Part shown: positions 4,799 through 9,158 of the stretch, in pieces
Position numbering within the stretch: the first letter of the stretch is position 1
Layout of the letters: the number at the start of each line of letters is the position of its first letter
Source: Opitutus sp. GAS368
GTDB lineage: Bacteria > Verrucomicrobiota > Verrucomicrobiia > Opitutales > Opitutaceae
NCBI GenBank assembly: GCA_945903545.1
Contig: CAMDOO010000028.1
Location: 1 to 38,440 of the forward strand
DNA: 38,440 nt
Reading direction: 5' to 3'
Notes under the pieces: model-generated
Seen by the model: the letters and a program-made list of their open reading frames with translations, nothing else
The model's database searches: none
What the model was told of the DNA's origin: nothing
Made by a program: the position numbers and the translations under genes

Positions 4799-4817
4799 AA
4801 TGGCACAGCCATTTTGG
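4795..4817. repeat. Perfect 10-bp inverted repeat with 3-nt loop
   Basis: Arms ccaaaatggc (4795-4804) and gccattttgg (4808-4817) are perfectly complementary around a 3-nt loop. The hairpin lies about 36 nt after the stop codon of the MFS gene on the minus strand and overlaps the first possible start (TTG) of the next gene. It could attenuate or terminate transcription from the MFS gene, but no run of T follows the stem, so a classical intrinsic terminator is not shown. Confidence 0.6.
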
Positions 4818-4852
4818 CTCCTAGCAGCGCGCGGACAAATTCCGACACGCTG

Positions 4853-6493
4853 TTAGTGCCCGATCTCGTTGTCCTTCGTCTCCGGCAGCACCAGCAACCC
4901 GATCAGGAAGGAGAGCGCGGCGATGCCGATGGGGTACCAGAGCCCGGCGTAGATGTCGCCTGTGAACAACACGATCGAGGCCGCAATCAGCGGCAGGAAG
5001 CCGCCGAACCAGCCGTTGCCGATGTGGTAAGGCAGCGACATCGAGGTGTAGCGGATGCGGGCCGGGAACAACTCGACGAGGAACGCCGCGATCGGGCCAT
5101 ACACCATCGCCACGTAGATCATCAGGACGGTCAGGAGCGTGATCACCTTGAGCTTGTCGATTCGCGCCGGATCCGCGGCCTTCGGATAACCGGCCGGGGC
5201 CAGGGCCGCCTCGTAGTCCTTCGCATCGAACCCGGCCACCGGCGCGGCGGCGCCAACGGTCAGCACCACGGGGGCCTCCGGCCGCGCCGCGGCAATCTTG
5301 AAGGGCGTGCCCCGCCCGTTGAGGAAGCTGCGCGCCTTCTCCGTGTCGGTCGTCGTCGCCTTGGGCGGCAACACGATCTTGCGGGCCGCATCGCCCAGTG
5401 CCGACAGCGTCAGCGCGCCGGCCCCGCGATATTCCGCCGTGTGCAGCACCACGGGATGCGCGGCCATCGCGTCGGCGAGCGCGGGATTGCCCGCGCGGGT
5501 CAGGCCCTGAAAGATCGGCTGGTAGGTGAAGACGGCGAGCAGGCAGCCCGCCAGCATGATGGGCTTGCGCCCAATGCGGTCGGAGAGCCGCCCGAAGATG
5601 ATGAAGAAGGGCGTCCCGATCAGCAGCGAGATGGCGATCAGCTCGTACGTGTTCACATAGTCGACCTTGAGCGTCGCGCTGAGGAAATAGAGCGCGTAGA
5701 ACTGGCCGGTGTACCACACGACTCCCTGGCCCATGGTGGCGCCAAAGAGCGACTTGAGCACGATCTTGGCGTTCGGCCAGTGGGCGAAACTCTCGGTCAG
5801 GGGCGCCTTCGAGGTTTTTCCCTCGGCCTTCATCTCCGCGAAAACCGGCGACTCCTCCAGCTTCAGCCGGATGTACACGGACACGCCCAGCAGCACGATC
5901 GAGACGAGAAACGGGAGCCGCCAACCCCACGCCGCAAAACTCTCGGCGGACATCGCGTGGCGCACCAGGTAGACGACCGCCAGCGAGAGGAAGAAGCCCA
6001 GTGTCGCCGTCGTCTGGATCCAGCTCGTGAACCGTCCGCGCTTTCCCGGCGGGGCGTGTTCGGCCACGTACGTCGCCGCCCCGCCATACTCCCCACCGAG
6101 CGCGAGGCCCTGCGCCATGCGGAGCAGGACAAGGATCACCGGCGCCCAATAACCGATCGTCGCGTAACCGGGCAGCACCCCCACCAGCGCGGTGGCGAAA
6201 CCCATCACCAGGATAGTGACCAGGAACGTGTACTTGCGTCCCACCAGATCGCCGATCCGCCCGAAGACCAGCGCCCCGAACGGCCGCACGGAAAAGCCCA
6301 CGCCAAAGAGGGCGAGGCTGGAGAGAAAGGCCGCCGTCTCGTCGCCGGGCGGAAAGAAGTATTTCGAGAAAAAGACCGCGAGCGTGCCGTAGATGTAGAA
6401 ATCGTACCACTCGAAGACCGTGCCGAGCGACGAGGCGAAGATGACGAGGCGGTGCTTGCGATCAAGGGCGGCGGATTCGGCGGCGGTGGGCAT
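4853..6493 (-). CDS. MHS-family MFS transporter (metabolite:H+ symporter type)
   Basis: A 546-residue inner-membrane transporter of the major facilitator superfamily. The N-terminal TASSLGTVFEWYDFYIYG-like stretch (residues 19-36 here), RPFGALVFGRIGDLVGRK (70-87), LRMAQGLALGGEYGGAATY (124-142) and PGKRGRFTSWIQT are hallmarks of the MHS branch (ProP/KgtP/ShiA-like). The second-half repeat of the loop-2 motif is GRLSDRIGRKP (301-311). A hydrophilic insert of roughly 110 residues (about 330-445) separates the predicted TM8 and TM9 region, which makes the protein longer than the usual 430-450 residues; similar long MHS proteins are known. The substrate is not predictable, with organic acids or osmolytes as candidates. 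The ATG start is well placed before the conserved N-terminus. It appears to be a single gene. Confidence 0.93.
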   Translation of the reverse strand: MPTAAESAALDRKHRLVIFASSLGTVFEWYDFYIYGTLAVFFSKYFFPPGDETAAFLSSLALFGVGFSVRPFGALVFGRIGDLVGRKYTFLVTILVMGFATALVGVLPGYATIGYWAPVILVLLRMAQGLALGGEYGGAATYVAEHAPPGKRGRFTSWIQTTATLGFFLSLAVVYLVRHAMSAESFAAWGWRLPFLVSIVLLGVSVYIRLKLEESPVFAEMKAEGKTSKAPLTESFAHWPNAKIVLKSLFGATMGQGVVWYTGQFYALYFLSATLKVDYVNTYELIAISLLIGTPFFIIFGRLSDRIGRKPIMLAGCLLAVFTYQPIFQGLTRAGNPALADAMAAHPVVLHTAEYRGAGALTLSALGDAARKIVLPPKATTTDTEKARSFLNGRGTPFKIAAARPEAPVVLTVGAAAPVAGFDAKDYEAALAPAGYPKAADPARIDKLKVITLLTVLMIYVAMVYGPIAAFLVELFPARIRYTSMSLPYHIGNGWFGGFLPLIAASIVLFTGDIYAGLWYPIGIAALSFLIGLLVLPETKDNEIGH

Positions 6494-6659
6494 GGGGTGA
6501 TGCGGCGGTGATGGGGGACCGGTCCAGCGCTAGGGGGGGCGCTGTCCTGATTCAACCTGAGGGTGCGGGCGAAGCGCAGCCGGTGCGGAGGATGCGGTCA
6601 AGGTGGGATAACGTCGCCCGCGGGAAACGTACCTTACAGTAACATGGGGGACGAATCGC

Positions 6660-7706
6660 TCAGCGCAGCGCGGCCGGCGCGGGTTGCCCGGTCAAGGTGG
6701 CATGGACGGTCAGTGCCAGAAAACGCGCCCCGTCGGCATTCGGATGAATCCCGTCCGGCACCAGGCCGGCGTGCGGCTGCATCGCCTCATACTGGTCGAT
6801 CAGGCCAACCTTGGTCTCTCGCGCAATCTGCGTGATCAGGGGAATTTCCTCCCCCGTGATCACCGTTTCGCTAATGTCGAACGCAGAACTGAACGCCGGC
6901 ATGGGCTTGGTGATCCAAATTCGCGGGCGCGAGGGCAACGCGGCAAACCGGGCGATCATCTCCTTGTAGTCGGACTCAAATTCCGACGCGAATTTCCAGT
7001 TCTGCGGCTTGCTGTCGTTGGTCCCGAGCATGATCACCACGACGTCCGGGTTGAAATCCAGCGCCGCCTGGAAAGCGGGCTCGTTCCAATAGGGCCGGTC
7101 GCCCTTCTTCAACAGGGTGGCGCCACTGATGCCGAAATTCCGGACTTCCCACTTTGGGCCAAGCATGCCCGCCAGCTGGGCGGGATAGCTGTTCGGCGTG
7201 TTGGGCAGCGTGAAGCCGCCCCGCGCCGCGGCCGGGCTGTTCTGCGTCACCAGCGCGGCCAGTTGCGTTTGATTCAGGCGATCCGGAGAAGCCTGCAACC
7301 GCGCCAGCGCGGCCGCTCTCGCCAGGGCCAGTTTCAGTTCGGCCTCAGCCAGTGAATCCGCCGCGGCCTGCAGCACGCCGCGCTCCGGCGAACCGCTGAC
7401 GGCCGCTTGCTGCAACGCCGTTCGCGCTTGCGTCACCGCAGCCGTGAGTTCGGTCGTGGAAGTCGCCATCTGCGTGACCGCGGTCTGCTGCGCGGTGGTA
7501 GCCCCGGGGACTTGAACCCCGCCCCGACCACCGGGCGTGGTCGTGCCCGAGCCAAACGTGATGCTGTCCCCAATCATGGCCACCCGGACCGGATGGTCGT
7601 AAGCCGCGGGATTCAGCGGCGCGGTTTGGGCAAAACCCGGCGCTCCGACCAGCGCCACGAATAGAATCAGAGCAGTGAGCAAAGGCAGGCATGATTTGGA
7701 TCGCAT
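6660..7706 (-). CDS. Secreted SGNH/GDSL-family esterase with an inserted helical module
   Basis: A 348-residue predicted secreted hydrolase. The chosen ATG at 7706 begins a clear signal peptide (hydrophobic 7-25, AQ at the cleavage site). SGNH block I is MIGDSITFG with Ser48, block III is GTND at 228-231, and block V is DGIHPN with Asp318 and His321. The unusual part is an alanine- and glutamine-rich helical stretch of about 110 residues (58-167) placed between block I and the next strand of the fold (NSYPAQLAG). It resembles a module in the upstream alpha/beta hydrolase. The two genes are separated by only 35 bp on the same strand and are probably co-transcribed. SGNH enzymes remove acyl groups from sugars or lipids; acetyl removal from plant or algal polysaccharide is a guess from context. 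Confidence 0.88.
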   Translation of the reverse strand: MRSKSCLPLLTALILFVALVGAPGFAQTAPLNPAAYDHPVRVAMIGDSITFGSGTTTPGGRGGVQVPGATTAQQTAVTQMATSTTELTAAVTQARTALQQAAVSGSPERGVLQAAADSLAEAELKLALARAAALARLQASPDRLNQTQLAALVTQNSPAAARGGFTLPNTPNSYPAQLAGMLGPKWEVRNFGISGATLLKKGDRPYWNEPAFQAALDFNPDVVVIMLGTNDSKPQNWKFASEFESDYKEMIARFAALPSRPRIWITKPMPAFSSAFDISETVITGEEIPLITQIARETKVGLIDQYEAMQPHAGLVPDGIHPNADGARFLALTVHATLTGQPAPAALR

Positions 7707-7741
7707 GACAAAATCAGAGGTTGGAAGACAACGAGGCCGGC

Positions 7742-8995
7742 TTAATTCAGATACTTCTTGAACCATTCCGTCGAGACCGCCCCGTAATCGGCCGGGGGCT
7801 GGTGGCCGCCGTCATGAAACCGCAGTTCCTTTTGCGGGCTCGAAATGAGCTCGAAGAGCTGCTGCGCATCCGGAACGGAATAGAAACCGTCACTGCGCCC
7901 CATGAACATCAGGATCGGAATCGACTTGTTCGCCCCGGCAAAGGTCTGCGGCGCGATCGGAATCGCGCTGGTCTCCTTCATCGGGATGATGGGCGTCAGC
8001 CCGGCCACCACGACCTTGATGCGCGCATCCATGGCCGCGAGCGCGAAGGACTGAATGCCACCCATGCTGAGCCCGAGCACGCCCATGCGGTTGGCGTCGA
8101 TCTCCGGGCGGGTGGTCAGAAAGTCCATCGCCCGGCGGTCCTCCCCGATCGATTCCTGGATCATGGTGCGGTCGGCCGGACGGGCGGAGAAGGCCGGCCG
8201 ATAGCCACCCGGGATGGCACGTTCGCCGTGGTGCCGCGCGTCCATGGCGAGGACGGCGAATCCGGCCGAGAACAGCGCCTCGGTGAGCGAGGCACCGCGG
8301 GGCCAGAGATCCGTGGCATCATGGAACCAGCGCTCCTTCGCCCCACCGACACCATCGAGCAGAAGGATGACGGGATACGGGGCGGTGCCGTTCTTGGGCA
8401 GGCCAAGGAAGGCGGTGGCGCGGCTGCCGCCAGCTCCGGCAAAGGAAATCTTCTCCCGCGTGTACGTCGGGAAATCCTGCGTGCCAAGCGTCAGCGCCTG
8501 CAGCGGCGTGGTGCGATCGTAATCATAGAACTGGCTGACGGCCGTGAAAATCTCGGGTGGGGCGAGCTTGACCGGCGACGTGTTCGCCGGGCCCCCGCGA
8601 CCGCCGCCTGCGACCCCGCCGCGTCCGGCCTGGCTTTGGGCCAGCAGTTGCTCGGCGTTCAGCTTGTCACCGGACGCCTGGATTTTCGCAAGCGCGTCGG
8701 CCCGCGCCAAGGCCAGATAGAGATCGACGCTGGCCACCGCGCCCACCTTGCGTTGGATGTCCGCGTCGTTTCGGGGCTGCGCCAGACTGGTGGCAGTCAA
8801 CTCCGCGCGGGTCGCGGCCAGCAGGTCATTCAAGGGGGCCACCGCGGTGTTCATGGCCGTGACGGCCAACTGCTGGGCGGCCGTCAGGGCACTGGGAGCC
8901 GAAGCCGTCGCGGGCGCTTGGGCCGGGGCCTGGGCAAAGGCCGGCGCGCTCAACGCGAGCACGGCCAAGAATGGAAAGGAGGGGACGGTTCGCAT
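7742..8995 (-). CDS. Secreted alpha/beta hydrolase (dienelactone-hydrolase / acetylesterase-like)
   Basis: A 417-residue predicted exported serine hydrolase. The ATG at 8995 starts a typical signal peptide ending in APAFAQAPAQ. Residues 37-120 form a helical Ala/Gln-rich module like the one inserted in the neighbouring SGNH hydrolase. The catalytic domain follows from about 150. It has the nucleophile elbow GLSMGG with Ser310, a probable acid Asp369 in GRSDG, and His398 in HDGGHQP. HHGER near 255-259 resembles the conserved region of acetyl-xylan-esterase and dienelactone-hydrolase-like families. It is the first gene of a two-gene unit with the SGNH hydrolase. The frame is open further upstream, but that extension lacks a signal peptide at its start and is less likely. 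Confidence 0.88.
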   Translation of the reverse strand: MRTVPSFPFLAVLALSAPAFAQAPAQAPATASAPSALTAAQQLAVTAMNTAVAPLNDLLAATRAELTATSLAQPRNDADIQRKVGAVASVDLYLALARADALAKIQASGDKLNAEQLLAQSQAGRGGVAGGGRGGPANTSPVKLAPPEIFTAVSQFYDYDRTTPLQALTLGTQDFPTYTREKISFAGAGGSRATAFLGLPKNGTAPYPVILLLDGVGGAKERWFHDATDLWPRGASLTEALFSAGFAVLAMDARHHGERAIPGGYRPAFSARPADRTMIQESIGEDRRAMDFLTTRPEIDANRMGVLGLSMGGIQSFALAAMDARIKVVVAGLTPIIPMKETSAIPIAPQTFAGANKSIPILMFMGRSDGFYSVPDAQQLFELISSPQKELRFHDGGHQPPADYGAVSTEWFKKYLN

Positions 8996-9158
8996 GATCG
9001 GTTTGGGGTTGGAGCGGAAAGCGTGCAGCCAGCGAAGCGGATCCCACAGGAGGCGGGCCATCATCAGGCATCGGTATAGAGACCCGGCCGGTCGAGGCCA
9101 GTCCGGTTTATGCCGCGGATCACCCTTGAATATCGCCGGCCAAAATCCGCTTTATTGA

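Follow-up and report, generated by a model that had tools for sequence, protein, structure and literature searches.

The window analysed here, a stretch of 38,440 nucleotides from Opitutus sp. GAS368 (contig CAMDOO010000028.1), holds two neighbouring genes for unrelated exported hydrolases, and this locus raises the question of whether the helical segment common to both proteins is a genuine module and, if so, how it came to reside there and what it might do. On the minus strand, the gene of the alpha/beta hydrolase (start at 8995, MRTVPS...) is followed after 35 bases by that of the SGNH hydrolase (start at 7706, MRSKSC...), in which the motifs GDSIT, LGTND and DGIHP are all found. The pair is kept in identical order in a congener, G001 (85% identity); G001 appears to be the MAG known as uncultured Opitutae bacterium UppL6_bin-1600, a contig of which codes for the same SGNH protein with 100% identity. 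The features of the two genes are given below, profile A1 being a 30-row alignment of the module used for searching.

7742 to 8995, minus strand: alpha/beta hydrolase (Hydrolase_4/DLH/AXE1-like), with signal peptide, module and catalytic domain
8633 to 8890, minus strand: module copy 1, residues 36-121 of the alpha/beta hydrolase, after the signal peptide and before the catalytic domain (profile A1, E = 1.1e-26)
8570 to 8632, minus strand: Gly/Arg-rich linker QAGRGGVAGGGRGGPANTSPV after module copy 1, read from the sequence
6660 to 7706, minus strand: SGNH (GDSL_2) hydrolase, with signal peptide, block I, module and remaining fold (PF13472, E = 1e-24)
7557 to 7571, minus strand: SGNH catalytic block I, GDSIT, read from the sequence
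7509 to 7553, minus strand: linker GSGTTTPGGRGGVQV before module copy 2, overlapping a segment with pLDDT <50 in the full-length model
7242 to 7508, minus strand: module copy 2, residues 67-155 of the SGNH hydrolase (profile A1, E = 7.4e-25), an empty site in homologues
7188 to 7241, minus strand: linker NSPAAARGGFTLPNTPNS after module copy 2, pLDDT <50 in the model

Long open frames on the plus strand of the window (4814-6511 and 7721-9079) run antisense to real genes; they are an effect of the high G + C content and no evidence of genes.

With respect to the first part of the question, BLASTP with compositional adjustment yields a single, ungapped match between the two hydrolases, with 33 of 82 residues identical (40%, E = 2e-5), and its Smith-Waterman score of 130 lies above the maxima obtained from 20,000 residue shuffles (82) and from 20,000 heptad-preserving shuffles (102). 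Therefore, low-complexity bias cannot remove the similarity, and an artefact of Ala-rich helices is ruled out. The first-pass annotation had described a shared helical module with common start (AAQQ/TAQQ-AVT-M) and end (LALARA...QAS.D.LN..QL) motifs, and both the module and the motifs are indeed found in the two hydrolases. A duplication between the neighbouring genes is unsupported, the two window copies not being sisters in the module tree, the deep branches of which are short and weak.

The earlier placement of the inserted module in the SGNH protein, after block I and ahead of the remaining fold, also holds true: from GDSIT to the YPxQL motif there are 123 residues, as compared to about 8-12 in eight homologues from several phyla. 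Corresponding empty sites were found for three further hosts. In the GSDH host, residues 104-284 and 366-629 align to stretches only three bases apart in G009, so that about 81 extra residues (285-365) stand against a single residue there, and the insert is likewise absent from homologues in other genera having the gene. In a PETase-like hydrolase 93 residues compare to 7-8 in three genomes, and in a xylose-isomerase-like barrel 119 residues to 5-9 in homologues. At these four sites homologues from other genera have only 1-12 residues; the module is therefore an insertion, which in some cases lies within the catalytic domain. Homologues of the alpha/beta hydrolase from beyond the genus align mainly to the catalytic part, and as its module is N-terminal there is no clean internal empty site in this protein. 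GRGG-rich linkers often flank the modules. They also occur in module-free exported proteins of all three genomes of the genus (G000, the genome studied here, and the congeners G001 and G002; e.g., G000 C33:19997-21385 and G001 C359:5741-8500), so that such low-complexity linkers are a wider trait of the genus. As an obligatory vehicle of spread they are unsupported, both for this reason and because the GSDH and PETase-like inserts lack them.

The module is by no means confined to the two hydrolases. Searching the genome with a hydrolase copy gave 36 places, and with A1 37, every one of them in an open frame without stops and none outside open frames; the genome was read around the module copies and search matches. 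That the module occurs in these two enzymes is thus confirmed, whereas the notion that it is specific to the pair is not, as about 35 other exported proteins carry it. Consequently, the earlier proposal, in which the module is an adaptor holding just this pair of esterases together, takes too narrow a view, given the wide occurrence of the module and window copies that are not sisters. The two congeners have 26 and 24 matches, and 37 (own genome), 24 and 24 copies, respectively, were recovered from the fetched regions. In the sample that included the two congeners, the sole other positive genome was G024, and a search of the family found five of 252 genomes positive, of which only G024 and G555 lie outside the genus. 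G024 has a 370-residue exported protein (L120:1882-2991) with a tandem pair of modules and no other domain, and G555 (L305) an exported 3-keto-disaccharide hydrolase with a single module N-terminal to the enzyme domain; both might possibly represent intermediates of the spread of the module. Among 387 genomes sampled from the phylum no further module copies were found, and the sole match beyond the own genome is a 179-residue protein of G340, which itself clearly belongs to Metal_resist/LTXXQ (PF13801, E = 3.2e-14; PF07813, E = 3e-10). In these larger searches, scoring covered only the 13-21 top candidates of a first look at each genome. Within the phylum sample the module is therefore restricted to one genus, except for the two sister-genus proteins. 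A first scan of genome contigs with the module alone, a tblastn search of phages and plasmids with one module copy and a pattern scan of viral contigs gave no match, all three being insensitive for so divergent a module; bacteria beyond the phylum were covered by insensitive scans only.

The module-free parts of the hosts span a wide range of unrelated Pfam families, comprising ThuA, 3-keto-disaccharide hydrolase (PF06439), GSDH, SGL, GDSL_2, Esterase, PETase-like hydrolase, xylose-isomerase-like barrel, FGE-sulfatase, DUF6797 and YNCE-like propeller as well as DUF7133 proteins with HEAT repeats and cytochrome c. What nearly all hosts have in common is export: a signal-peptide heuristic accepted 77 of the 86 host proteins, three of the remaining nine are cut by contig ends and at least four others have Sec/Tat signals by eye, and no clearly cytoplasmic host was seen among the 86. 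Family PF06439 includes experimentally supported 3-keto-disaccharide hydrolases that are thought to be periplasmic (PMC9007349). The position of the module varies even within families, being N-terminal, internal or C-terminal to the domain in ThuA proteins and either N-terminal or domain-splitting in 3-keto-disaccharide hydrolases (in C73 of G002, for instance, the domain is interrupted between profile positions 81 and 84); such different sites within one family imply several independent acquisitions. Two paralogous fusions of a 3-keto-disaccharide hydrolase, a module and an SGNH domain occur in G000 (C33, L123:2525-4267; C109, L020:69-1802) and have orthologues in G001 and G002. In these the SGNH domain is conserved and GDEI or GDDI stands in place of the expected GDSI, so that the catalytic serine has apparently been lost. 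In addition, there are four families of small exported proteins in which the module is accompanied by little else than a signal peptide and low-complexity stretches (Gly/Arg-rich or other); in G000 they are represented as follows:

C35, L139:2726-3319: small stand-alone module protein, its module about 90% identical in G001 and the most Metal_resist-like copy
C72, L140:2805-3332: small stand-alone module protein
C10, L137:1933-2736: small stand-alone module protein
C18, L138:2340-2969: small stand-alone module protein

These four families are natural candidates for a hub or an ancestor.

As to the nature of the module, AlphaFold predicts for A1 helices at 5-36, 43-72 and 80-88 (pLDDT 97), i.e., a hairpin of about 85 residues made of two long helices and a short third one. 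In the full-length model of the SGNH protein the module is likewise helical (pLDDT about 75) and flanked by segments below 50, and is therefore most reasonably regarded as an independent domain on tethers, as far as the model goes. With Foldseek, the six best solved structures are all ZraP chains (3lay; probability 0.99-1.00, TM 0.58-0.71, E 0.16-0.43), and VIA-align gives Z 8.8 for ZraP and similar values for unrelated hairpins, such middling scores being uninformative for helical hairpins. A sequence search for solved relatives of the module gave nothing significant. Profile comparison is more telling: hhalign of A1 against an alignment of Metal_resist proteins, most of which come from the same family and order, scores 32.3 (E = 1.2e-5, 80 columns), as compared to 7.5 for the reversed profile and a maximum of 21.6 in 60 heptad-preserving column shuffles. 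In line with this, module and Metal_resist both carry a TxxQ motif twice, where helix 1 begins and at the short last helix; in the module, Q6 is found in 67 of 80 copies and Q81 in 67 of 85, each mostly with T, S or N three residues before it. A search of 30 modules against Pfam found weak Metal_resist matches in four (best E 0.015), no domain of Pfam or NCBIfam passes its cut-off on the module, and because no copy reaches the curated Metal_resist threshold (best 19.7 bits, in a 198-aa stand-alone protein, vs 29.2) the module is not filed under that family. Judged from profiles and motifs, it is probably a derived offshoot of the Metal_resist (PF13801)/LTXXQ (PF07813) group, with which it shares export, small stand-alone versions, the significant profile-profile match and a helical hairpin that is about as long and is flanked on both sides by an (L)TxxQ motif, but from which it differs in being Ala-rich, in lying below the cut-off and in being fused to or inserted in enzymes in tens of copies per genome. 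The 88 copies also contain no Cys and only 10 His, so that metal binding of the ZraP/CnrX type is not expected. At the same time, a number of polar positions hardly vary between copies in unrelated hosts (R63 and E/D56 in 85 of 88 copies each, Q71 in 77 of 85, R28 in 69 of 88), which exceeds the needs of a tolerated spacer but may serve the hairpin itself.

Orthologous copies reside in the same place and are about 41-99% identical, whereas copies in unrelated hosts are 41% identical on average. The module tree groups copies by host orthologue and not by genome, its deep branches being short and poorly resolved. All copies share descent, and the pattern fits a burst before the split of the three species with vertical inheritance afterwards. 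Recent transposition is rejected in view of the absence of near-identical DNA copies, as the best matches between unrelated hosts within one genome reach only 65-70% over 200-250 bases. In 42 cross-species orthologue pairs the module has a median dN/dS of 0.28, with every pair below 0.6, as compared to 0.17 for the rest of the host proteins; the copies are therefore under purifying selection, although a ratio below one would also be expected of a selfish or merely tolerated insert if misfolding were costly.

This raises the possibility that the module is a selfish or neutral in-frame coding element that its hosts tolerate, for which the Rickettsia and Wolbachia palindromic elements provide a precedent as small mobile sequences inserting in frame into many unrelated protein genes of one lineage (PMC2229807, PMC4224334). 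Burst-like and lineage-restricted spread and insertion inside catalytic domains would agree with such an origin, and in-frame insertion into existing protein genes is what the empty sites of the four hosts display. The Rickettsia elements, however, are palindromes of 105-146 bp bounded by terminal inverted repeats and are found in intergenic regions and RNA genes as well (PMC2229807), whereas the module is a stable folded domain of exported proteins alone, no copy was found outside open frames, and no long terminal inverted repeats are shared, a check of the two window copies having given only short scattered inverted repeats. Together with the low identity at the DNA level and the selection on amino acids, this makes a selfish element an improbable explanation, which we rank third.

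Instead, the reading ranked first, albeit tentatively, is that the module is a common association tag, spread by a genus-specific in-frame burst and kept by selection. Under this scenario, small exported Metal_resist/LTXXQ proteins, i.e., relatives of ZraP, CnrX, Spy and CpxP, would have been the source from which the module, in an ancestor common to one uncultured genus of Opitutae, was copied in frame and burst-like into many existing genes for exported enzymes, either at one of the two termini (N or C) or within a catalytic domain, and frequently together with flexible GRGG-rich linkers. It would then have been inherited vertically under purifying selection and might mediate association in the periplasm, either by packing of hairpin against hairpin or via the four families of small module proteins, with the outcome that many enzymes of one compartment would have one common partner. 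A common partner or surface, as surmised for the two hydrolases, is possible for many exported proteins and would be compatible with the selection on the module and its conserved polar positions. That tag-based assembly through a hairpin derived from a ZraP/Spy-like stress protein, at almost any position of the chain, actually gathers dozens of exported catabolic enzymes, mutually or on stand-alone module proteins, is a more doubtful proposition.

Kinship to Metal_resist/LTXXQ, a group which includes Spy, suggests in addition that each exported enzyme might carry a built-in chaperone or solubility hairpin of the Spy/ZraP type without any common partner. The restriction to exported hosts, the indifference to position and the flexible linkers of low model confidence would be in keeping with this. 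However, Spy, an ATP-independent periplasmic chaperone, forms a cradle-shaped dimer whose concave face is basic (PMC8144458), whereas the module is a single hairpin of near-zero net charge (mean +0.3), the Ala-rich faces of which offer little hydrophobic surface to clients. Moreover, in the same genome many members of the host families are exported and yet do without it: by our own count, four of ten PF06439 proteins in G000 and eight of 13 in G002 bear the module, i.e., six of the ten in G000 lack it. Ranked second, a chaperone function accordingly appears unlikely.

The association tag also has to be weighed against a module that binds a surface or polymer and anchors the exported enzymes to the cell envelope or to a polysaccharide substrate. 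Carbohydrate-binding modules and dockerins likewise equip many catalysts with a single tag, and the hosts are exported and largely of carbohydrate-related families. Yet aromatic residues are few (13 Trp in 88 copies), there is no Pfam resemblance to known binding modules, and the hosts also include cytochrome c/HEAT proteins and a protein like formylglycine enzymes; such anchoring, ranked fourth, is therefore very improbable. As in cellulosome dockerins and other enzyme tags, one small module is found on many exported catalysts of different families, but it has no dockerin repeats (no Pfam dockerin match in 30 copies) and often lies within the catalytic domain instead of being appended to it.

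Domain insertions are usually encountered as single, old events. Here, one module resides in dozens of genes for exported proteins from many unrelated families in one genus, even inside catalytic domains, and since the same module occurs in many hosts for which module-free homologues exist, domain insertion becomes open to study with natural replicates. The hairpin is also compact and tolerates many positions, and a whole series of exported enzymes carries it, so that a role as a tag or as a chaperone is directly testable.
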